Below, one piece after another: positions 10,936 through 37,824 of a stretch of DNA of 43,008 bases. Under the pieces are notes generated by a model. That model searched no databases, was not told where the DNA came from, and saw nothing but the letters and a program-made list of their open reading frames with translations. A program made the position numbers and the translations under genes. The stretch is from an uncultured Lachnospiraceae bacterium (GTDB lineage: Bacteria > Bacillota > Clostridia > Lachnospirales > Lachnospiraceae), in NCBI GenBank assembly GCA_947589095.1, contig CANQBX010000029.1:1-43008 (forward strand), read 5' to 3'. Each line of letters begins with the position of its first letter. Position 1 is the stretch's first letter.

Positions 10936-11373
10936 TTAATAATTCTGCAACTCTACCTCTTGCTGTATAGCCTCCTCTAAGGCTCCATTCAGCTTAGTAT
11001 CCAGCATAGCATCTATCTCATTTATTTCCTCTAGGATAAGCTGGTAGCTTTCCTCTGGAATCCGGTCTTTCAGTTTTAGCTCTAGCCTCAGCTTAAGGAG
11101 TAAAAACCTTATTTTCCCCTTAGAAAGATTTTCTATTTTGGATTTATTGAGGTAGAAAACTATAGAGGCACCAAAGATACCCCCTGTAGTTAAAATCTGC
11201 TGAGTGGCGTAACCGCTAACATCCAGCCCACTTCTCACCGCCCCTCTTATATCTAAGAGAGTGAGGATAAAAAGTAAGCCGGTAATGATAACGATCATCT
11301 TAGAAAACTCCTTACCACCCTTAGAGTTTTCAGTAGATAATCTGGATCCCCTCCTCCGCTTTCTCAAAGCCAT
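10936..11373 (-). CDS. Small membrane protein of the lysis module, unknown function
   Basis: 145 aa. A basic N-terminus (KRRRGSRL) precedes two hydrophobic helices (about 26-42 and 58-74), then a long charged helical tail rich in Glu/Leu/Lys. It lies 14 bp upstream of the holin gene and downstream of the XhlA-like gene, so it could be a second holin, an antiholin or a spanin-like partner. I do not recognise the family. Good GGAGG start signal. Confidence 0.8.
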   Translation of the reverse strand: MALRKRRRGSRLSTENSKGGKEFSKMIVIITGLLFILTLLDIRGAVRSGLDVSGYATQQILTTGGIFGASIVFYLNKSKIENLSKGKIRFLLLKLRLELKLKDRIPEESYQLILEEINEIDAMLDTKLNGALEEAIQQEVELQNY

Positions 11374-11399
11374 CCTTACCGCCTCCTAGTCACCTGTGC

Positions 11400-11738
11400 C
11401 TAGTGGATAGTTTGAGCTAAGAGAGCCAGCAATCCAGTAGCTAAAGCTCCGGCAAGAGCACCTACCAAAGTATTAAAGATAGTCCTTTTCATTGAGCTCC
11501 ACGCCTTAGCCGGTTCCTGCTCAATGTTTTCCACCTTGTTACTGAGCTTAGATACATCCTGTTTTATCTCCTCAACATTCTCATTAGTATGCTTACACTC
11601 TCCTATAAGCTCTACCATTGTTTTAGATATAGCATGGATCTCATTTACCACTGGCTTAAGCTCCTCGATCTGGTGAGAGTTAATCTTTGCTCTTTCTTCC
11701 ACCTTAACTAACCTCTCTACAATTTCTGGATCTGTCAT
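11400..11738 (-). CDS. XhlA-like (hemolysin XhlA family) membrane-associated lysis protein
   Basis: 112 aa. It begins MTDPEIVERLVKVEERAKIN, followed by heptad-patterned coiled coil (about 5-78) and one C-terminal membrane helix (GALAGALATGLLALLAQ). XhlA of B. subtilis PBSX has this layout and cooperates with the holin XhlB and amidase XlyA in lysis. The gene order here (XhlA-like, membrane protein, holin, endolysin) agrees. Family assignment is by layout and sequence pattern. Confidence 0.82.
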   Translation of the reverse strand: MTDPEIVERLVKVEERAKINSHQIEELKPVVNEIHAISKTMVELIGECKHTNENVEEIKQDVSKLSNKVENIEQEPAKAWSSMKRTIFNTLVGALAGALATGLLALLAQTIH

Positions 11739-11798
11739 AGCTGGCTATCCTCCTTTCTGCAACATCAAAAAGGAGAGCCCCCTTTGAGGCTCCCCCTC

Positions 11799-11927
11799 TT
11801 ACTCTGTTGCCAGCTCCGGTACTTCCAGATCAACCAAAATCTGCCTTACCTGTTCTTTGATGATCTCCGGCACATCCGCAAATTTCTTTTTACCCTTAAC
11901 AATGAGGGTAGCATAGATTACCGCCAT
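11799..11927 (-). CDS. CD1375-like small phage protein, copy 1
   Basis: 42 aa, MAVIYATLIVKGKKKFADVP..., preceded by GGAGG. It is one of the tiny conserved proteins found between tail-fibre and lysis genes of clostridial phages, with a Y-A-x-L-I-x-K-G-K-K pattern and a helical amphipathic C-terminal half. The role is unknown. It is paralogous to the next gene (shared IYA-LI-KGKK--DVPE). Confidence 0.75.
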   Translation of the reverse strand: MAVIYATLIVKGKKKFADVPEIIKEQVRQILVDLEVPELATE

Positions 11928-11983
11928 AATAGCTACCTCCTTTCTAAAAAATATTTTTAGGATTAAATTGATAAACATATCAA

Positions 11984-12097
11984 TTACACCTCATCACTTT
12001 CCGCAAGAATCTTTTCTACCTCTGCCCTCAGCTTTTCCGGTACATCCTCCAGAGTTTTCTTACCCTTTTTAATGAGCTCCGCATAAATCTTAGCCAT
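11984..12097 (-). CDS. CD1375-like small phage protein, copy 2
   Basis: 37 aa, MAKIYAELIKKGKKTLEDVP..., preceded by an AGAGAGGGT site. It is paralogous to the 42-aa product just downstream, so a tandem duplication seems likely. Function unknown; the position between the DGR and the lysis genes suits a late structural or assembly accessory. Confidence 0.72.
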   Translation of the reverse strand: MAKIYAELIKKGKKTLEDVPEKLRAEVEKILAESDEV

Positions 12098-12120
12098 GAT
12101 ATTTACCCTCTCTTTCTGCT

Positions 12121-12399
12121 TTACAGCATCATTTCATACACATCCACAAGAGCTAACTGCAAATCTGTAGCCTGTTGCTCTAAGGAGCTGTTTTGCTCAG
12201 ACAGGAGAGCAATATACTCATCCTTATCATAGATAATCTGCTCCTCAATCTCCCAGCCATTAAAGCCAGAACTGGGATCATCCTCTTTAGCTGGCTCATG
12301 AATCTCAGAGATACCATTGTTTACCGTCACATGGTACTCATCCAGCTCAAGCGGCAACACTGTCTTTGCTGTACTTCTTACCTTTGCATATTTCTGCAT
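12121..12399 (-). CDS. Conserved small phage protein, unknown function
   Basis: 92 aa with a strong AAAGGAGG site. It overlaps the reverse transcriptase 3' end by 53 bp, so the two are translationally linked. The N-terminal half is extended with many acidic residues. The C-terminal 40 residues (EYIALLSEQNSSLEQQATDL) look like a short coiled coil. Similar proteins sit next to CD1375/XkdX-like genes at the end of clostridial phage tail operons. I saw no resemblance to the four-helix Avd protein of DGRs. Confidence 0.72.
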   Translation of the reverse strand: MQKYAKVRSTAKTVLPLELDEYHVTVNNGISEIHEPAKEDDPSSGFNGWEIEEQIIYDKDEYIALLSEQNSSLEQQATDLQLALVDVYEMML

Positions 12400-13597
12400 T
12401 TCCTTTTACCTCCTTTAGATAATAATTGTGCATATATTCTACATTAGGAGCTACATACTTTTGATAGAGGCGGTATCCATCACAGTTTTTCAAGATCCCT
12501 TTGTAGCTATTAAAAGAGCACCACTCACCATAAGTAGGGCTCTCATTGTTTTCTCTCTTTTCTGAGATACTAAGCATTTTCTTTTTGAGATTTTTACAGG
12601 TACTCTTTCTGAGTAACGTGTACTCTCCAAAGAAACGATATCCCACAAAATCAATACCTCTAACCTTTGAGGGAAATACCTGCCAATTATGCTTTATCAC
12701 CTGTTTAAGATTTACAGCCATAAACTCATCCAACTCTAATTTAAGCTGGTGTAATTCCTCCTTAGAGGAGCCAAAGATCACCATATCATCCATGTATCTA
12801 AAGTAATATTTCACTCCCTTTACTTCTTTCAGCCAGTGATCTACCGGAGAAAGATTAAAGTTACCATCATACTGAGATACATAGTTTCCAATAGGGATCC
12901 CTACACCATCTATAAACTCCCTACCATTATCATCCACCACGATATTTACCAGCACCCCTAGCCGCTGGAGAATTTCAATATTTTCCTCAGTAGCCGGACA
13001 AGTGCTAATACTATCTATGATTTCATCTAACAGCCAGATAAGCTCTGGATCCTTAAATACCTCTCTAAGCCTTGCCTTTAGTACATCATGCACTATAGAG
13101 GGATAATACTTTCTCACATCCAGCTTAAGACAGTATTTAGTACCCTCTGGATCACTCACCAGAATACTAGGTACCCAATACTCTTTTACTACCTTGCCAT
13201 CCTTTTTAATAACTTTCTTATAGCCCCTAAGCTGATCTACTATAGGCTGTATCCCTCTTTTCGGAATTGCACTGTATGTATCCTTAGTCATATTCTTTAA
13301 GAGGTATGGCTCTATCACCTGTAATATAGCCCATTGGCATATCCGATCTGGATAATAAGGCAATTTATAGATTTCCCTTACTTTATCTCCCTCTTTCTTT
13401 TCAAAGGTTTCATAGGGAGAGGTTTTATAGGTATGTTCTATTAGGCTATCCTGCAATCTTCTCAAATAGCTATCTAGGTTCTTTTCTACCTGTTTTACTT
13501 CTGCATACCAGCCCTTTCCTTTCTTAGCGTGTTTGTGAGCCTGTCTAAGGTTTTCCATATCGCAGATTTTAGAAAATAAATCTCCTGTACCTTTCAT
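12347..13597 (-). CDS. DGR reverse transcriptase
   Basis: Copies the template-repeat RNA into cDNA with random bases opposite adenines. Of 416 residues, motif A is CLKLDVRKYYPSI (D160). Motif B is GIPIGNYVSQ (about 234-242), the I/V-G-x-x-x-S-Q form typical of DGR enzymes rather than the QGxxxSP of retrons and group II introns. The catalytic centre is YFRYMDDMVIF (YMDD 268-271). No maturase, endonuclease or HNH domain follows. I favour the ATG at 13597, which overlaps the stop of a small upstream ORF (ATGA); a GTG at 13606 is the alternative. It lies 3' of the template repeat and target gene, as in other DGRs. Confidence 0.93.
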   Translation of the reverse strand: MKGTGDLFSKICDMENLRQAHKHAKKGKGWYAEVKQVEKNLDSYLRRLQDSLIEHTYKTSPYETFEKKEGDKVREIYKLPYYPDRICQWAILQVIEPYLLKNMTKDTYSAIPKRGIQPIVDQLRGYKKVIKKDGKVVKEYWVPSILVSDPEGTKYCLKLDVRKYYPSIVHDVLKARLREVFKDPELIWLLDEIIDSISTCPATEENIEILQRLGVLVNIVVDDNGREFIDGVGIPIGNYVSQYDGNFNLSPVDHWLKEVKGVKYYFRYMDDMVIFGSSKEELHQLKLELDEFMAVNLKQVIKHNWQVFPSKVRGIDFVGYRFFGEYTLLRKSTCKNLKKKMLSISEKRENNESPTYGEWCSFNSYKGILKNCDGYRLYQKYVAPNVEYMHNYYLKEVKGNAEICKGKKYSKDSVAA

Positions 13598-13722
13598 GCT
13601 CCACACTCAGCCCCTACTTGTATTTGTATGTGCATAAAGGAGAGCCAGCTATCCACCATAGCACCACCGTACACATGATTAGAGTAACCGGTAAAACGGT
13701 TTACAGAGTTTCCTCTGCACAT
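13594..13722 (-). CDS. Small ORF between template repeat and reverse transcriptase
   Basis: 42 codons, MCRGNSVNRFTGYSNHVYGG..., with AAGGAG five bases before the ATG and a TGA that overlaps the reverse transcriptase ATG. This suggests translational coupling of the reverse transcriptase. No family is recognised, and it is too short and not helical enough for Avd. It may exist mainly as a leader, and its DNA also lies where the DGR RNA spacer needed for cDNA priming is expected. Confidence 0.45.
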   Translation of the reverse strand: MCRGNSVNRFTGYSNHVYGGAMVDSWLSFMHIQIQVGAECGA

Positions 13723-13854
13723 AGGCACTCCTTTATACTACTTTTTACCTCCTCCCCATCTCTGGAGAGGCTTTCTGTTTTGCCAAGAGGCAAGGTAGCT
13801 ACTTACTCACTTAGGTATTTCTAAGTGTTATGGTTAACACTAATTTCCTTATAT

Positions 13855-13978
13855 GCACATATAGTAAGTGACTGCTGATATTCCGATTACGATTAGAGGA
13901 GGCATTATTCAGATTAAGGTACCAACCGCATTTAGCACCATTATTCCATTTACCACCTAATTTAGTAACATGAAAATC
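13855..13978 (-). repeat. DGR template repeat (TR)
   Basis: A 124-bp segment aligned without gaps to 14159-14282. On the coding (minus) strand the TR is rich in AAT codons. By hand count it has 37 adenines; 23 differ in the VR (19 A to G, 3 A to T, 1 A to C), and none of the 87 other positions differ. The first non-adenine mismatches (base 13979 on one side, within a few bases beyond 13855 on the other) mark the borders. The 529-base stretch from 13607 to 14135 holds the small ORF above, this TR and a hairpin, and no other gene. Confidence 0.95.
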
Positions 13979-14059
13979 CTTGTAGCTACCCACAATACTA
14001 TCCTTATCACAAATACAGGTAAGATTTAGATAAGTTTTATTTAGTTTTCCTTAATACAG

Positions 14060-14106
14060 AAAGAGGATGTAAAACAGCACTTTTTAGCACCGCACACACC
14101 CTCTTT
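14060..14106 (-). other. Hairpin downstream of the variable repeat
   Basis: An 11-bp stem (14060-14070 with 14096-14106, one G-T wobble) with a 25-base loop lies 52 bases past the VR end and 29 bases past the target stop. It is not followed by a T run, so it is not an obvious terminator. In the BPP-1 DGR a hairpin/cruciform 3' of the VR promotes homing; the same role here is inference. Confidence 0.45.
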
Positions 14107-14135
14107 TCCTGTTTACCAGTATTTTTACTTTATCC

Positions 14136-15959
14136 TTATGCACTGATCTTAGTTTGAGGCACATACAGCAAGCGACCGCCGACATTCCGATTACGACTAG
14201 AGGAGGCACCACACAGATCAAGGCACCAACCGCACTTAGCACCATAAGTCCACCTACCACCCAATACAGCAACATGAAAACCAGTATAGAGATTCCAGAA
14301 ATAATTACCCACAGGTAAATTACTGGCACCCCCTACCGCTGTAGGGATAAGCAACTCCGGGAAATCCCCATCAATACCAAAGGAGCTAACATATCCCTCA
14401 CCAGTGTAAGCCTCAAAATCTAAGGGAGTATAGCCATCTCCAGTAGTATCATCTTTCATCTCACCATACTCTTTTACATATACTGTACTCTGAGTGGTAG
14501 TATTAAACTCATTCATACCATCCAGCCAAGTCCAGATATTACCCCAGAGGTTTTCCTCTCCTCTGTAGGATACAGAGCACTTACCATCCTCATCCTTAGT
14601 TTTATTAGGATCAATACCGGATCCGTTACCCAGCCCAGCGGTAGCACCGGTTACTACAGCCATGTTGGTTTTACCATCATCTACAAAGTTACATACACCT
14701 TTACCTACCGCACTCTGCACATCAAAGGTAGCATATTCAATAAGAGCAAGCCACTGAGTAGCAGACATAGCAAAAACATTATGTAACTGCCAACCGGCAC
14801 CCCTCTTTTTAGCCATCTTCCTAGCGTTTGCTCTAGTTAATACGGTAGATCCGGCACCGCTTGCCGGTTTCGCTCCGGCAATACTGCACAGCATATCATC
14901 ATCAGCGATAGTAAGAGAGGCATCATCCAGAATATACTTACCGCCCTCTCCGGCATCTGCATCCCAGATACAGCCCTCATAAGCCGCAAGGTAGATATGA
15001 TCCTGTAAGTTACCATTGGCATCCCTAAAACCTTTCACCGGTCTAAATCCCACCTTAGGATTAGGAGAAATATAAAACCGCCCCTTAGAATACTGCCGCC
15101 CTCTACCAGATCCAACTACCGTACTCTTGACCGGCACAGCCTTTACATAAAAGAGCGGCTGTTCTACCATTACCTGAGCCTTAGTACCAGCCTCATACTG
15201 TTTTTCCGCACCGTCTACCGTCTTAGTGATAGCCTTAGCTGTGGCTCCAGTTTCCACATAACCATCCTCTCCATGATAAGCCAGCACAGTACCATCATCC
15301 GCAAGGATACACCTCTTACGCATCCACGGAGCCAGAGTATCAAAATCCTTACCAGCGGTAAGATTCTCAGATCCGGCAATCCTTGTAACTTTTTTATTTA
15401 CAAAGTCTACCTCTACACCATACACATCCTCATCCTCATAGCCCACAAAACTCTTTACATCCTCAATCTGATCCTGTAAATCTATAATCTGAGATACTGT
15501 GGCTCCGGCACTAGGATCTACTGTTACATTTACGTTAGAGGCATTGGATACCGCTGTGATAAGATCCACCAGCAAACTACTCACGCCTACACCATTAAAG
15601 GGAGGCATCCAGTCCGCACTAGCAGAGCTTTCATCCGCTACAGAAATGCTATAGCAGATCTCTCCATCCTGCGGATCTGTGGCATACAGCCCAATATTTT
15701 TTACAGAGTAACCTTGCTGTAATTTCTCATTGGAAAATCTGGCACTTACCTTTACATTACTCTCATTCTGCCTCACAATAGAGGCTACCTTTTCAGATTG
15801 CCGGATAGTACCGATACCAGTAAGAGAGGCTAAATCACCTTTCAGATCACTATCTCCCACAGCAATCTTAGTAAACTCCAGCTTAGTAGCACCGGATACC
15901 ACCTTTGCCATCAAAGCCTGCCCTTTTTTCGTTATAACTGCACTCTTAAACGCTCCCAT
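14136..15959 (-). CDS. DGR-diversified tail fibre / receptor-binding protein
   Basis: 607 aa. The N-terminal ~170 residues are a phage tail-collar fibre domain (MGAFKSAVITKKGQALMAKV, with KNIGLYATDPQDGEICY), which would anchor it to the baseplate. Residues ~290-607 resemble the formylglycine-generating-enzyme/C-type-lectin fold used by DGR variable proteins, with aromatic and Gly-rich blocks such as LWGNIWTWLDGMNEF. The C-terminal variable repeat spans residues ~560-600 (GFHVAVLGGRWTYGAKCGW onward). Mutable positions such as those after LGG, RW and CGW would line the binding surface. It follows the tail gene YmfQ and precedes the TR and reverse transcriptase. Strong AAGGAGG start. Likely binds a host-surface receptor; the ligand is unknown. 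Confidence 0.93.
   Translation of the reverse strand: MGAFKSAVITKKGQALMAKVVSGATKLEFTKIAVGDSDLKGDLASLTGIGTIRQSEKVASIVRQNESNVKVSARFSNEKLQQGYSVKNIGLYATDPQDGEICYSISVADESSASADWMPPFNGVGVSSLLVDLITAVSNASNVNVTVDPSAGATVSQIIDLQDQIEDVKSFVGYEDEDVYGVEVDFVNKKVTRIAGSENLTAGKDFDTLAPWMRKRCILADDGTVLAYHGEDGYVETGATAKAITKTVDGAEKQYEAGTKAQVMVEQPLFYVKAVPVKSTVVGSGRGRQYSKGRFYISPNPKVGFRPVKGFRDANGNLQDHIYLAAYEGCIWDADAGEGGKYILDDASLTIADDDMLCSIAGAKPASGAGSTVLTRANARKMAKKRGAGWQLHNVFAMSATQWLALIEYATFDVQSAVGKGVCNFVDDGKTNMAVVTGATAGLGNGSGIDPNKTKDEDGKCSVSYRGEENLWGNIWTWLDGMNEFNTTTQSTVYVKEYGEMKDDTTGDGYTPLDFEAYTGEGYVSSFGIDGDFPELLIPTAVGGASNLPVGNYFWNLYTGFHVAVLGGRWTYGAKCGWCLDLCGASSSRNRNVGGRLLYVPQTKISA
14159..14282 (-). repeat. DGR variable repeat (VR)
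   Basis: The 124-bp counterpart of the template repeat, ending 20 bases before the fibre stop codon. All 23 differences from the TR lie at TR adenines. Changes include N to T, Y, D, C, G and S, K to V and R, and T to A, while codons without adenine (GGT, TGG, TGC, GCC, TCC) are untouched. The 3' end shares TATGTGC with the TR and is the likely start point of homing. Confidence 0.95.
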
Positions 15960-15973
15960 TTTTCTTATCCTCC

Positions 15974-16855
15974 TTAAGATTTAATTGTAATAACCACGCC
16001 TTTACTCACCGGAGAGGCTATGGCATTTGTACTACTGATACTTGCCTTACTCTGGATATCGTGAGTGATAATCTTTGTATGGGCAATCCCAACACCTATA
16101 GCTCCATACATAGAGCTATTTACAGCATTTTCCAAATCCACATCATGAGTAATCTGGCTTGCCATTCCTATAGATCCCACAACCGCCTCACTAAGAGGAG
16201 TGGTACTCTGATAGCTGGCTCTTATATCATGGGTAATTACATGAGCCTCAGCCTTAGATACTCCAACCGCATAATACAACGCTCCCTCTCCTATACTGTG
16301 AACATTGATATCACTGGTGAGGAGGTAACTCATAGCGGTACACACCACCACTCCCAGATACATAGGAGATATAGGAGGCGGAGCTTCTATAGTGTTCCTA
16401 AGCCTCAGCTCCAGATTAGCCGGTAACATCTCCTCCAATAGTCTAGTTACCTCATCAAAGGTACCAGATACTCCTAAATGAGTTTGTACCTCCAGCCAAT
16501 ACTCAGTAAAATGCTCCTGTATATCAAAGCTGGAAATATCTCCACCGCATAAAGAAAGGAGCCGGTTATACAGCTCCTTAAACGTGTAGGGTACTTTATC
16601 ATTCCACTTAGCCAGTACCCTAAATCTCCTCATTTCTAGGTTATCCTCTGCCTCTGGATAGATCCCCAACATACTCTCAAAATGCTTAATACCCTGCTCA
16701 TCCGCCGTTTCTATAAACATATTGTTAAGAGTACGATCAATAGCCTCTAGGATATATCTCAGCTCCGGCTCCTCTGTTTTTGCAATCTCCTTAAACTCCT
16801 TTAGCTTTCTGAGTATAGGCATCCAATAGCTAAGGAGGTTAATATCCTTAGCCAT
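15974..16855 (-). CDS. Baseplate/tail protein, YmfQ (XkdU, DUF2313) family
   Basis: 293 aa from the ATG at 16855 (MAKDINLLSYWMPILRKLKE), which has GGGAGG upstream and overlaps the baseplate J gene by 8 bp. The N-terminal ~190 residues carry the family pattern, including FESMLGIYPEAEDNLEMRRF and KVPYTFKELYNRLLSLCGG. The family lies between baseplate J and the tail fibre in PBSX-like phages and probably links the fibre to the baseplate. The C-terminal third has three related blocks with V/A-ITHDI motifs (about 190-280) that look like a short internal repeat. Confidence 0.88.
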   Translation of the reverse strand: MAKDINLLSYWMPILRKLKEFKEIAKTEEPELRYILEAIDRTLNNMFIETADEQGIKHFESMLGIYPEAEDNLEMRRFRVLAKWNDKVPYTFKELYNRLLSLCGGDISSFDIQEHFTEYWLEVQTHLGVSGTFDEVTRLLEEMLPANLELRLRNTIEAPPPISPMYLGVVVCTAMSYLLTSDINVHSIGEGALYYAVGVSKAEAHVITHDIRASYQSTTPLSEAVVGSIGMASQITHDVDLENAVNSSMYGAIGVGIAHTKIITHDIQSKASISSTNAIASPVSKGVVITIKS

Positions 16856-17936
16856 TAGTAACACCTCCCAACACCGGTATTTTCTCCTGTGAGAGTGCTA
16901 TATTGCTATCCACCCCATTAAGAGTAGTACCAGTTACATCCAGCACCCCCTCCAGATTAAGTAGCCGGTTTTCCACCTGTGAGATACGCACTGTAATAGC
17001 TCCATTCTCCCAGCTTTTCCTCAGCTCCAGAAAATAAGCCTCTATCACCTCAGTAGCCCTATCCTTAATCTGGCTCCATGAGTACCCATCATCCAAAACA
17101 AAGGCACATTTTACGGCTATATTTTCAGCCTCAGCGGATACTACTGTAACTGTATGCCCTATAGGAGCTATGCCGGATCCGGTACCCTGTGGATCTGGAT
17201 CTATCTCCTCCTGCACCTTTGATACCAGAGCTCCAGAGGCTACATTGAAATTACTATCAATGATAATCAGCTTAACAGTGCCGCCACCGTTCCATACAGG
17301 GATTACTACTGTACCACCAACACCATCTATAGCATCTGTTTTCTCTTTGTAATCCTGCTTATTTCCTCCAAAAGGATTACTTTGGAAAGAGTTAAGGTAC
17401 CTTTGCCTTAGTACCTCTGTATCCTCCTCATCCTCAGCCGGTATTAACAGCTCCACCAGCTCTCCCTCTAAATCCTTATGGATATATTCGATACTGGAGA
17501 GCTCTCCAAACTGTTTATTACCAATTGTGCCAGCCGTTTCACATTCTACTTGATAATAGTAGTATGTAGCCCTTTCATCCCCCTCCCCCTCCTCCTTACT
17601 TTCAATAAAGGAGAGGGCTCTGTAGTTAATCTCATCCAGATTATACCTAGAGCCTATAGGGATCTCCATGTTAAACTTACCCTTTAATACTGCATGGGTA
17701 GCCTCATGAGGGTAAATACCACGCTCAGAGCACCGGAGTACCAGATAATCCCTTGTGGCTGTGTCTGCATACCCATCTCTGATAATTCCATCTAAGAGGA
17801 TATAAATATTAGCGTGTTCAGCGGATACCGGAGCTATGGCGTTCATTACTACAGAGCCCTCACGCTTATCAACATCTGTAGCCACCCTTGCAAGGGATCT
17901 AGCTAAGATAGTTTCATAAGTTTGATCCTCATACAT
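16848..17936 (-). CDS. Baseplate J-like protein (XkdT)
   Basis: 362 aa. Baseplate J proteins form the wedges of contractile tails. The N-terminus shows the family pattern ARSLARVATDVDKREGSVV followed by AEHANIYILLDGIIRDGYADTATRDYLVLRC; the middle has the beta-rich J domain with NSFQSNPFGGNKQDY. The gene overlaps both neighbours by 8 bp, so the XkdS-XkdT-XkdU trio is translated as a unit. Confidence 0.93.
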   Translation of the reverse strand: MYEDQTYETILARSLARVATDVDKREGSVVMNAIAPVSAEHANIYILLDGIIRDGYADTATRDYLVLRCSERGIYPHEATHAVLKGKFNMEIPIGSRYNLDEINYRALSFIESKEEGEGDERATYYYYQVECETAGTIGNKQFGELSSIEYIHKDLEGELVELLIPAEDEEDTEVLRQRYLNSFQSNPFGGNKQDYKEKTDAIDGVGGTVVIPVWNGGGTVKLIIIDSNFNVASGALVSKVQEEIDPDPQGTGSGIAPIGHTVTVVSAEAENIAVKCAFVLDDGYSWSQIKDRATEVIEAYFLELRKSWENGAITVRISQVENRLLNLEGVLDVTGTTLNGVDSNIALSQEKIPVLGGVTNG

Positions 17937-18345
17937 ACATTTCCACCTCCTTACTTCCTAAATCCGTTACCAGCCTAAAATTTATCTGGAGATGATCGTT
18001 TTCCTGCACCACCACCAGATCCTCTATAGCTTTTATATGCTCATTTTCAAAAAGGCACTCCTCCATATACCTCCTAACCTCGCTCTCCAGATATTCCTCA
18101 CTATAAGAGTTTCCTATAAGGTTAGTGTACTCCTCCCCATACTGCCAGCTATAGATAACCCATCTGTATCTCTTAGCCCTTAAAGCTAAGTAAGCCCACA
18201 CACAAATAGCATCTACTCCCTCTACTATTCTTCCTGTAAGCCGGTTTTTCTTAAAATCCAATTCATACTCACGGATAGAGGAGGCGGTTATTTCTGGAGT
18301 AGCTAAGGTTATCTCCTCATTAGTAGCAAACGGAAATAAACTCAT
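17929..18345 (-). CDS. Baseplate protein, XkdS (DUF2634) family
   Basis: 138 aa, gp25-like small baseplate component. Recognisable features are the REYELDFKKNRLTGRIVEGVDAICVW stretch (about 26-50) and the YSWQYGEEYTNLIG motif. The start overlaps the upstream stop (TAATG). Its place between DUF2577 and baseplate J is the PBSX order. Confidence 0.88.
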   Translation of the reverse strand: MSLFPFATNEEITLATPEITASSIREYELDFKKNRLTGRIVEGVDAICVWAYLALRAKRYRWVIYSWQYGEEYTNLIGNSYSEEYLESEVRRYMEECLFENEHIKAIEDLVVVQENDHLQINFRLVTDLGSKEVEMYV

Positions 18346-18758
18346 TACGCACTCACCACCCTTGCTAAGATTACATACATATTGTTATTTTGGAGTTTCT
18401 GCACCGCCACCAGATCTCCCTTTTTAAGCCCATCTGTATAGGTTATCTGAGGCTGTATAGTAGTTGATACGTCTGGATCTGGATTATCCTTACTGGCAAA
18501 AGGATTACTCTGGGTAGTATCTACAGATACCCATGAGAGATAAGGTACTTTAATTTTCCTTGTGTATCCAGATACCAGATAATCCGCTATATACAGATCC
18601 TCAGCATTTAACACCAGATCATCTATCTTAACGCTATTAGCACTCTGCATTACCCCAAGCTGTAGGATAGGAGGATTATCCTTAGCACCTTGCTCTCTCA
18701 TCATTCCCAACATTTCAGCATAGTAATGATCTGCCTCCATAGTGCTCTCTTTTCCCAT
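18345..18758 (-). CDS. Phage protein, XkdR (DUF2577) family
   Basis: 137 aa. It begins with a short helical stretch (HYYAEMLGMMREQGAK) and continues as a small beta-barrel-like domain with KKGDLVAVQKLQNNNMYVIL near the end. DUF2577 proteins lie after XkdQ in contractile phages and are thought to be baseplate hub components. GGAGGG start signal; 1 bp overlaps with the next gene. Confidence 0.85.
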   Translation of the reverse strand: MGKESTMEADHYYAEMLGMMREQGAKDNPPILQLGVMQSANSVKIDDLVLNAEDLYIADYLVSGYTRKIKVPYLSWVSVDTTQSNPFASKDNPDPDVSTTIQPQITYTDGLKKGDLVAVQKLQNNNMYVILARVVSA

Positions 18759-18759
18759 G

Positions 18760-19722
18760 TTAGCCCTCCTTTACATCCATCATCTGCTTTAAGGTAAGGG
18801 TAAGTGTCATAGTAGCCACACCGTTACTCCATGAGTGAGTATCACTATCTATCCACACCACCCCGCTAAGCCCTGTGGAGCTATCCCTCACAACCGCTCC
18901 AGCTCCGGTAACAGCCCCATTAAAATTTACACAGTTAAGGGTAAAGGTTTTCTCCACGCTCTTAAACATACTCTTAGCTGTGGTAGTAGGATCCTTGCCC
19001 TCCTCCTTAGTGTAAGTTTGCTGGAATATTCCATACTTTGTTACATCCTCATCATTCTGTACTACTCCTGTTTGATTGCCCTCTCCATCATAGATCTTTA
19101 CCTTATTCACCATTCCATTAAGGCTCTCTTTGTACTGAGATGAGGTAATGTTGCTATCCTCTGTGAGCTCTATCTCACATACTACTTTTCCCATTTCCTC
19201 TACATTGAGGCATCCCAATTTAGCCACTACTCTATAACTTACCCCGTTTTGCTGGTAAGCCTGTGTATAAGCCCTCATGATGATCTCATAGATACTCACA
19301 TTCTGTACTATGAGTTTCTGAGAGATCCCCGTACTGGCAAGCTCCCCTGTAGGGATCTCCATATCCCTACATACCATCTGAGTAATAGCCTCTGCTGTCT
19401 TTCCGCTAAAGTTATAAGTGGCATTACTCTTAAGGGTATAATATAGTAGATCGTAGGCTGTGTAGGTAACTGTGCCGGTTACACTACTAGCCTCACGATC
19501 TACCACAAATCCCCTAAAGAGCTCTGTCTTTCCATCATCCTCAAAGAGATAAACAGGATCCGCTAAGTCAATAATAAGAGGAGTAATATTTTTATCCAAA
19601 GGAGCATTTACCACCTTAAGCTCCAGCTTTCTAGCCACCTCAGATTTAGAGCCTCCCCAGCTCATATCTGATACATACTCAGTAATATCCTGCTCCTTAT
19701 GTACTACTATCACACCTCTCAC
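18760..19722 (-). CDS. Baseplate hub protein, XkdQ/YqbQ family
   Basis: 320 aa, resembling the T4 gp27 / Mu gp44-type hub beneath the tail tube. The N-terminus shows a Trp-Gly-Gly motif (DMSWGGSKSEVARKLELKVVNAP) and later LFRGFVVDREASSVTGTVTYTAYDLLYYTLK. It lies between the LysM protein and DUF2577, as in PBSX. No peptidase domain is fused. Confidence 0.9.
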   Translation of the reverse strand: MRGVIVVHKEQDITEYVSDMSWGGSKSEVARKLELKVVNAPLDKNITPLIIDLADPVYLFEDDGKTELFRGFVVDREASSVTGTVTYTAYDLLYYTLKSNATYNFSGKTAEAITQMVCRDMEIPTGELASTGISQKLIVQNVSIYEIIMRAYTQAYQQNGVSYRVVAKLGCLNVEEMGKVVCEIELTEDSNITSSQYKESLNGMVNKVKIYDGEGNQTGVVQNDEDVTKYGIFQQTYTKEEGKDPTTTAKSMFKSVEKTFTLNCVNFNGAVTGAGAVVRDSSTGLSGVVWIDSDTHSWSNGVATMTLTLTLKQMMDVKEG

Positions 19723-24865: not shown

Positions 24866-25966
24866 TTATTCCTTGTTAATGAAGATATCAACATCCTCAA
24901 TAGCATCCAGAATACTGATAGTACCTTTAAGGAATACATGAGAGCCGGTATTAGCCTCTTTAATCTCCTGCTCACTCATCTCAGAGGTATCAATACCAAT
25001 ACTCTCCAGATACTGTTTCTGCTTAGGTACATTGATCTCAATGGAGGAGCTATCTGCCCTCAGATACCCCCTACCACCATCTGTAGCCTCCAGCCCTCTA
25101 AGGTAGCCCTGTATAGCCGTAATAAGCAAACACTTATTATCATAGCTATTAGAGTAGTTACCAATATAGGAGCTGTTAATGGTAGTGTAAATATCGGTTT
25201 CAATGAGATCCTGTATAGCAGAAATCTTAATCTTTTTCAGATCCTCAGTTTCCACCTCATCCACAGTAATAAGGGAGTTTACACCTCTGCCGATCATGAT
25301 CCGATCACCATCATTATAGAGTACCAGTTTACCCTCATCAATGGCGGTATCTACTTCCTCATCCTCTGCGTTAGGAATAGCTGTAACCTCAGTAAGAGGC
25401 TTATAGGTAGCCGATACCCTCAGATCCAGCCCAGCCAGTAACCCAGCGATCCGGCTACAATACTGGGCAACCGTGTACTGATTCTCACCAACCTCTATCT
25501 TTCCATCCTGCCCACCGTTCACTAAGCAGAAATTCACTACCGCTCTGCTATCTCCCTCAGTTTCCGGCAACACCACTACAGGGCGGCGAACACTCGTTTT
25601 ACGGATCCCCTTAACCCATGTAGCAAACTTTGTAGCCTCCTCAGTGCTAATATCTGGAGCTCCACAAAGGTAATTTACTTTCTGAGAGCCGAAAAACTTA
25701 AAGCCCTCAGTATAATCCTCCGCATCCTGCCCCAGATTATAGATAATTACCTTGCTGGGAGTACCAAGAAACGCTCTTTCGATATAAGCGGTATTCTCAG
25801 CACTAAAAGCACTCTCTCCAGTAGGGATCTCATCAATGCCCCTCAGCACCATAGCACCCTTATTTTTCTCATCTTTGATGATAATACCTACCACCCCAAG
25901 GGTACCCATCTTGATAGCTGTAATGGCTTTTCTGGAGAATTCAATTACAATATCCGGTAATCCCAT
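24866..25966 (-). CDS. Phage tail sheath protein (XkdK-like)
   Basis: 366 aa. The sheath contracts to drive the tube through the cell envelope and is diagnostic of myoviruses. The N-terminus (MGLPDIVIEFSRKAITAIKM) and C-terminal region (LLITAIQGYLRGLEATDGG, then SIEINVPKQKQYLESIGID) are typical of the clostridial phage sheath family. It is shorter than T4 gp18, like other PBSX-type sheaths. Confidence 0.94.
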   Translation of the reverse strand: MGLPDIVIEFSRKAITAIKMGTLGVVGIIIKDEKNKGAMVLRGIDEIPTGESAFSAENTAYIERAFLGTPSKVIIYNLGQDAEDYTEGFKFFGSQKVNYLCGAPDISTEEATKFATWVKGIRKTSVRRPVVVLPETEGDSRAVVNFCLVNGGQDGKIEVGENQYTVAQYCSRIAGLLAGLDLRVSATYKPLTEVTAIPNAEDEEVDTAIDEGKLVLYNDGDRIMIGRGVNSLITVDEVETEDLKKIKISAIQDLIETDIYTTINSSYIGNYSNSYDNKCLLITAIQGYLRGLEATDGGRGYLRADSSSIEINVPKQKQYLESIGIDTSEMSEQEIKEANTGSHVFLKGTISILDAIEDVDIFINKE

Positions 25967-37188: not shown

Positions 37189-37824
37189 TCATGCCTCCGG
37201 TATCACCAGATCATCAAATACAACCGGCACTCTCTCCTGTAGCTCCCTCAGCAAGGGTATAGCTACCTCCTGCATCTGAGGATGAGGCTTACCAGTAGTA
37301 CCCACCGCTCTCAGCTTAAGGAAATACCTCCACTCTCTAAGGTTAGCTGTCATTACAATTTCCGTTTTGAGGCTATTAGGCAATACCGCTCTTGCCTTTT
37401 GCGGCTCCCAGCCATCCTCTAAGAGCTTTAAGTATTGATTTTCACACACTTCCATAGCCTCTCTCCAATTCTGCCACTCAAAAATATCCTTGCCCTCTAA
37501 CCAGAAAGGAGCTATAACAGTGATCTCTCCCTCATGCCCATAATTACAGTACCTTGTACTCTCCTGCGCAAAAGAGGCTAACCTGTGCCTTACAATCTCA
37601 TGAGATACCCCTCTATCCACAGTAAATTTTACTGAGAAAGAGTAGTGCTCCAGCATAGCCTCATGCCCTCTCTTAATGAGGGATCTTACCATCTTCTCCA
37701 CTGAGCCCTCTGTGATCTTATCTTCACTCTTGTAACATACCCTAGCTACTCTCTCAATCTTTTTCAGAATCTCCTCACCATTGAGAGGATCTAAGATCTC
37801 ATAACCAGCTCTAATTATTCTCAC
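37189..37824 (-). CDS. thyX: Flavin-dependent thymidylate synthase ThyX
   Basis: Makes dTMP from dUMP using FAD, NADPH and methylene-tetrahydrofolate, supplying thymine for phage DNA replication. The ThyX motif RHRxxSxxxxSxR is present as RHRLASFAQESTR, and MLEHYSFSVKF and LREWRYFLKLR fit the family. 211 aa, normal length. Starts at a GTG overlapping the stop of the upstream frame (GTGA), with GAGGAG about ten bases upstream. Confidence 0.96.
   Translation of the reverse strand: MRIIRAGYEILDPLNGEEILKKIERVARVCYKSEDKITEGSVEKMVRSLIKRGHEAMLEHYSFSVKFTVDRGVSHEIVRHRLASFAQESTRYCNYGHEGEITVIAPFWLEGKDIFEWQNWREAMEVCENQYLKLLEDGWEPQKARAVLPNSLKTEIVMTANLREWRYFLKLRAVGTTGKPHPQMQEVAIPLLRELQERVPVVFDDLVIPEA

Follow-up and report, generated by a model that had tools for sequence, protein, structure and literature searches.

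In a 43,008-nucleotide stretch of DNA from an uncultured Lachnospiraceae bacterium (GCA_947589095.1, contig CANQBX010000029.1, positions 1 to 43,008 of the forward strand; hereafter the window), a prophage carries a diversity-generating retroelement (DGR), in which a reverse transcriptase (RT) gene and a template repeat (TR) lie next to a tail-fibre gene that ends in a variable repeat (VR). The two repeats differ only at template adenines, most of which have become G, and the locus raises the question of what decides the fate of a template adenine. The window DGR itself is a known type of element, and the new part is a context rule: within the window's RT lineage, the outcome at an adenine depends on the next template base. 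Comparison of related sequences suggests that the window very probably holds a DGR of the usual plan whose RT lineage errs according to the template base 3′ of the adenine.

Template adenines and the base that follows them

The repeats, and the adenines followed by G (AG) or by C (AC), are placed as follows.

13855..13978, minus strand: template repeat (TR) with 37 adenines, from an ungapped alignment; adenine-only homology reaches 13853
14159..14282, minus strand: variable repeat (VR), in ungapped alignment with the TR at offset 304
13958, minus strand: AG-context TR adenine, silent (TTA to TTG), G in the VR; the other AG sites are 13876 and 13873
13920, minus strand: AC-context TR adenine, G in the VR; the other AC sites are 13966, 13869 and 13865

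A preliminary description of this DNA had counted 23 mismatches over 124 aligned positions, all at TR adenines, and recomputation gave exactly this result, with 0 mismatches at the other 87 positions and the same spectrum, read on the minus strand, of 19 A to G, 3 A to T and 1 A to C. Its view that chance would not produce such a pattern agrees with the hypergeometric probability of 9.9e-16 for 23 mismatches all falling within 37 adenines. A repeat search listed this pair as the longest direct repeat for positions 11000-19000, a finder that penalises non-adenine mismatches extended it to 126 nt with 24 adenine-only mismatches, and the TR and VR were the only matches at E <= 0.001 of a 221-bp query around the TR in the window's own assembly (G000). 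The minus strand, left unstated earlier, carries in order the fibre gene (15959-14136), the VR, the TR, a spacer and the RT gene (13606-12347), and the open reading frames (ORFs) of the RT (12347-13606) and the fibre (14136-15959) had been placed correctly, as had the VR at the 3′ end of the fibre gene, where it stops 23 nt before the end of the ORF. The TR lies outside the fibre gene, between its ORF and the RT. With an RT, adenine-only differences, a TR outside the fibre gene and a VR at that gene's 3′ end, the element is a DGR.

The A to G excess that had been called notable is real (P = 1.7e-6 against an expectation of one third), but it is not unusual for the lineage, since 19 such changes lie near the 15.0 +/- 2.7 expected by context from the other members. 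All seven AG and AC adenines of the window (3 AG and 4 AC) are G in the VR, and of its 30 adenines followed by A (AA) or T (AT), 16 are changed (12 G, 3 T, 1 C). Earlier surveys had found G to be the commonest adenine change, with passages of PMC6642488 giving about half of adenine changes as G and a heading of PMC3521204 calling the process 'essentially random'.

Our comparison set began with 518 loci, of which 433 had a TR/VR pair; 222 non-redundant ones were kept and 208 entered the RT tree, which holds only RTs with a TR/VR pair and so provides no outgroup test. Pairs were 75 or longer, with a TR identity of at most 93% and 7 or more mismatches, of which 85% or more fell at TR adenines. 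Because the pair finder already demands that 80% or more of the mismatches be at TR adenines, the set is silent on adenine specificity itself. The window's RT lineage comprises 76 non-redundant DGRs, whose TR adenine outcomes were sorted by the next template base, leaving out the last 35 nt of the TR because fixed TR/VR differences may occur there. Reading frames were the longest open frame through the VR; two DGRs (L212 and L228) are plainly misframed and three more failed a frame check, and because the frames of these 5 of 76 are unconfirmed, silent sites were recounted in confirmed frames only.

In this lineage, AG adenines were changed at 253 of 264 sites, always to G and never to T or C, and AC adenines at 169 of 219 (161 G, 2 T, 6 C). 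Adenines in AA were changed at 439/705 sites, 217 of them to G, and those in AT at 355/683 (208 G, 57 T, 90 C), so that the two pooled gave 794/1388 changed, to a mixture of letters (425 G, 204 T, 165 C). By trinucleotide, the AG contexts were changed at 163/166 (CAG), 66/71 (TAG), 15/17 (GAG) and 14/15 (AAG) sites, and the AC contexts at 40/42 (CAC), 82/97 (TAC), 7/10 (GAC) and 39/69 (AAC). Over the whole TR, AG, CAC and TAC together account for 24% of 2692 adenines, and 616/657 (94%) of them read G in the VR. When outcomes were permuted within each DGR (1000 runs), AG to G averaged 46% with a maximum of 54%, against 258/270 seen; the AG total is 264 above and 270 here because the context count skips adenines in incomplete end codons. 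The same outcome was found among RT representatives below 80% identity (182/190), in members on genome contigs (83/92) and in other members (174/177). Host base composition was rejected as the cause, as the AG rule holds at both low and high locus G+C (94/99 and 26/27).

VRs written from one TR point the same way. Ten groups of window-lineage loci sharing a TR (over 97%) contributed 23 VRs and 13 comparisons, each to the group's first member, and sites differed at 2/74 AG, 7/58 AC, 102/169 AA and 92/171 AT adenines (AG versus AA and AT pooled, 194/340: Fisher 1e-20); the corresponding tally for all other groups was left unused, as window-type groups were mixed into it. Differences between the VRs of relatives that share a TR were almost confined to TR adenines, and these comparisons show that TR and VR disagree regularly in the window lineage. 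The sequence sets contained no second strain of the phage in the window. AG adenines, and mostly those in CAC and TAC, thus appear to be recoded rather than diversified in this lineage. We think it likely that TR adenines form two functional classes set by their neighbours, with AA and AT adenines diversifying and those in AG, CAC and TAC recoded to G.

With AG and AC recoding, the TR can spell Ser, Gln, His or even stop where the fibre has Gly, Arg, Arg or Trp. Column 14 of the VR is Gly in 72/72 cases, while the TR has Gly in 54, Ser in 17 and Arg in 1, and near the VR 3′ end Arg stands in 72/76 VRs where the TR has His (46), Gln (22), Arg (6) or stop (2). Counted over the whole TR, AGT became GGT at 117/119 codons, AGC became GGC at 77/83, AGG became GGG at 33/33, CAC became CGC at 50/51 and CAG became CGG at 32/33. 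In-frame TAG became TGG in 3/3 cases in confirmed frames (L105, L188 and L106), with two more in the misframed L228.

The rule across RT lineages and its explanation

The rule also holds in a clade of 38 DGRs (L293, AG changed at 53/55) and mostly in one of 10 (L149, 19/22), though node supports between these and the window lineage are weak to fair (0.37-0.93). In other clades AG was changed at 3/7 sites (L353, BPP-1 relatives), 6/21 (L429), 1/19 (L474) and 0/4 (L240). In same-TR comparisons, AG sites differed at 0/15 in L293, 7/9 in L429, 2/4 in L353, 1/2 in L240 and 0/3 in L474, and AG adenines therefore do diversify in L429. A contrast is also found within single genomes: the window-lineage DGRs of G000, G005 and G010 (the window's own, L051 and L049, the last two represented in the tree by the same-TR loci L111 and L081) had 14/14 AG and 16/17 AC adenines changed, versus 0/4 AG and 26/66 AC in seven other DGRs of these genomes. 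The context rule goes with RT lineage, not with the host.

We also observed other DGRs in these genomes. G000 has a second DGR with its own TR/VR, another RT lineage and a balanced spectrum of 3 G, 4 T and 2 C (C28:30936-32021; L061, L067), as well as a further RT match with an in-frame TGA (C45:30842-31843, minus strand), and G005, from the same genus, has at least five DGRs with TR/VR pairs (L051, L060, L068, L070 and L071).

The BPP-1 DGR (mtd-avd-TR-brt; L311, NC_005357) resembles that of the window in its target-VR-TR-RT order, adenine-only changes, GxxxSQ motif and structured spacer. It differs in having avd between VR and TR, whereas 10/11 window-type records lack a bAvd match, and in its spacer, which is Phage_DGR RNA (RF03022) rather than the RT-17-like RNA, below threshold, of the window. 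BPP-1 and its natural relatives show no high-rate recoding of AG (24 DGRs, 7/19 changed), and over its 119 aligned nt the TR of BPP-1 itself contains no AG. Passages of PMC12875486, on the BPP-1 bRT in E. coli, report that the 3′ template base governs errors, with C misincorporation commonest, and propose slippage for AC contexts. The stress there is on G misincorporation at AC, giving VR C, while AC gives VR G in the window lineage. Near-fixed AG recoding is not described in sections 7 and 12 (part 1) or in the other passages of PMC12875486, heat maps aside, and no report of an AG rule was found in passages of the open PMC literature that included PMC8144416, PMC4891356, PMC11792537 and PMC10907252.

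In the mechanism we propose, TR RNA with its structured spacer would be copied into cDNA by an RT that goes wrong at adenines, and this cDNA would replace the VR of the fibre gene and vary the fibre tip. Having just copied a template G, the RT would put C opposite the next A almost always, turning AG into GG; having copied a template C it would often do the same, mostly in CAC and TAC and less in AAC; and after A or T the outcome would be mixed, with A often kept. The RT itself is probably the cause of the recoding.

Selection on the protein could produce a similar picture: if the folded fibre requires Gly or Arg at the residues that AG sites encode, only G-bearing VRs would survive, and many AG sites do coincide with conserved fibre columns, including the one that is Gly in every VR. 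We reject this account, which we hold to be most improbable, because silent AG sites also become G, at 49/50 fourfold-silent and 95/99 third-position sites, all changes being to G (44/45 and 90/94 in confirmed frames only). Template slippage, in which the RT copies the preceding template base a second time, predicts G at AG and may still add to the outcome there. It would also give C at AC and T at AT, however, and it fails for the lineage because AC becomes G in the VR and T is the rarest change at AT; as a full account it is highly improbable. A deaminase that edits TR RNA (A to inosine) at AG and AC before reverse transcription, with ordinary RT errors besides, would yield A to G alone at chosen contexts, but family scans of proteins from the DGR region matched no deaminase, and the unchanged AG adenines of the other DGRs in the same genomes, few as those sites are, together with the tie to RT lineage, make this very unlikely.

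That the window DGR is a decayed relic that has lost retrohoming is a different proposal, and an unlikely one. One assembly cannot show activity and no Avd was recognised, but the RT is open with YMDD and IGNYVSQ, TR and VR differ at adenines only, the spacer is predicted to be structured and relatives vary their VRs. The window's copy is presumably active.

Several points weigh against an RT lineage that errs by the base 3′ of the adenine, the explanation we prefer. At least one unchanged AG occurs in 11 of the 75 lineage DGRs that have an AG, and two are kept by L075, whose RT, at 76% identity, is the nearest of those from named genomes. For AC, the low rate of change at AAC confounds the pattern in the window lineage, the window itself offers only its seven AG and AC adenines, four of them within the last 35 nt of the TR, and the comparison lineages have few AG sites, with one clade of 6 DGRs (L461) showing AG changed at 2/2. 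The rule also tracks no single RT residue cleanly. As a candidate for sole determinant we rejected the motif-4 residue Tyr242 (GNYxSQ) versus Leu (GxLTSQ): AG was changed at 333/358 and 15/69 sites, respectively, but the residue follows phylogeny, and the idea is broken by L240 (Tyr/Phe members 0/3), L152 (Tyr/Phe, 0/2) and single sites in L019, L063 and L495, which leaves the residue as no more than a lead.

The RT, its spacer and the prophage

The remaining parts of the DGR are listed below.

12347..13606, minus strand: DGR reverse transcriptase with YMDD and IGNYVSQ, 419 aa from GTG; start probably 13597
13607..13852, minus strand: spacer between TR and RT with a predicted structure (fold of 13597-13870: -88.6 kcal/mol, z -4.0)
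13731..13797, minus strand: RT-17-like RNA; Rfam RF03020 scores 27.4 bits, short of its gathering score of 40.4
13776..13792, minus strand: hairpin TGCCTCTTGGCA followed by AAACA; the pattern lies at most 200 nt after the TR in 53/76 lineage DGRs
13852..13861, minus strand: TR 3′ end, complementary to 13627-13636
13627..13636, minus strand: spacer 3′ element that complements 13852-13861
12121..12399, minus strand: companion ORF, 92 aa, overlapping the RT 3′ end

A profile of 14 RT relatives matched a 328-aa RT, 8ub7, at 3.5e-51, while its matches to RTs of the retron and group II types reached 5e-26 at best. We take 8ub7 to be the BPP-1 enzyme, in agreement with the BPP-1 RT length of 328 aa in L311. 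Motif 4 of the window RT, IGNYVSQ, has the DGR form (I/V/L)GxxxSQ, a motif described in a part of PMC3521204, and the earlier assignment to the DGR type is upheld by this motif and by a profile match nearer a DGR RT than retron or group II RTs. Relatives point to the ATG at 13597 as the RT start. The closest RTs are those of L003 (81%) and L004 (80%), both on IMG/VR contigs, L075 (a Roseburia metagenome-assembled genome, MAG) and L074 (63%, a Clostridia MAG); these four loci share the window's arrangement and fibre family in diverged sequence, and L003, L004 and L075 also share most spacer elements, the spacer of L074 being shorter (185 nt). The 26 lineage members on genome contigs include Enterococcus, Aerococcus and a Cloacimonadota MAG. 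We observed a long insert between RT motifs in the window (residues about 201-235) and L003, absent in most of the 14 aligned relatives, and a shorter one in the RTs of L005, L007 and L049.

The DGR had been described as complete-looking, which holds with one reservation: no Avd was recognised. A profile search with bAvd (PF22296) gave no match in G000; all three BPP-1-type control records matched, and 1/11 window-type records did, by position not inside the DGR. In the first set, the 73 near DGRs, among them the window's, have 42-208 nt between VR and TR.

The fold of the spacer was more stable than 200/200 shuffles. RT-17 RNA lies in the same place (between TR and RT) and on the same strand, although the window spacer has 246 nt against a 95-nt model, and its gathering score was passed directly upstream of the RT in 9/17 window-type relatives. 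Phage_DGR RNA, present in L311, had no match in window positions 13400-14400 up to E = 1. Across 73 DGRs, the TR 3′ end paired better with its own spacer 3′ end than with those of other DGRs in 54 (P = 1e-6), but the effect is modest (mean score 8.3 vs 7.2, with several best pairs elsewhere), and such predicted pairing is modest support, not proof. In the contig of a related DGR we also observed an azaaromatic (yjdF) riboswitch (L007:11212-11336, plus strand).

Among the 76 window-lineage loci a downstream ORF was found in 71, and in 67 of these the companion ORF adjoins the RT. It is fused to the RT frame in G010/G013, and its family occurs in those 4 of 26 genus genomes, and no others, that have a window-lineage RT. 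It may be an Avd substitute, a candidate role against which L519 weighs: a relative there follows a fibre gene and two RT queries found no RT, so the companion may instead belong to the fibre. That fibre gene (L519:1471-2936, minus strand) ends in a VR-like motif (HASSYSDAGVGGRLMFL) in a 3.2-kb locus where neither query recognised an RT, and may once have been a DGR target or be one in trans.

The window, contig 29 of a 4.1-Mb assembly, has host genes (topA, dprA and yifB) to the left and the following phage genes.

7655..9433, minus strand: serine recombinase, probable phage integrase (Pfam Resolvase and Recombinase)
14136..15959, minus strand: DGR target, a 607-aa tail fibre protein ORF with the VR at its 3′ end (PHROG 5302 tail protein, 2.1e-159)
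24866..25966, minus strand: tail sheath of a contractile tail (PHROG 1480, 4.7e-121)

The head and tail genes comprise this sheath, portal, terminase, major head, XkdN-like and baseplate genes, and together with the serine recombinase and the host genes they confirm that the DGR lies in a contractile-tail prophage, as had been proposed. Towards the right end we observed a gene of the thymidylate-synthase family (PHROG 85; 37189-37824, minus strand). The fibre ORF scored 22.3 bits against Pfam Phage_tail_fib, slightly under the 23-bit cut-off, and sequence searches for a C-type-lectin fold gave no significant match (5vf4, E = 5). Within the VR, the most variable residues of the protein are 565, 569, 571, 572, 575, 581, 583, 584, 588, 590 and 592. 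The fibre tip may bind a receptor, with the mutable residues exposed at the surface.

Reading a template with probable recoding

If the rule is true, the coding of the TR departs from the protein made from it: an in-frame TAG is tolerated and read as Trp, and conserved glycines may be spelled with AG or GG in the TR and drift freely from one to the other. Of the adenines commonly taken to be mutable, about a quarter would then not diversify. The rule would change how a TR is read, both for its diversifying sites and for the unmutated protein, and with it estimates of repertoire size. The rule-bearing lineage would offer a clean handle on why DGR RTs err at adenine and almost nowhere else, and host genomes that contain enzymes of this class both following the rule and free of it provide a natural contrast.

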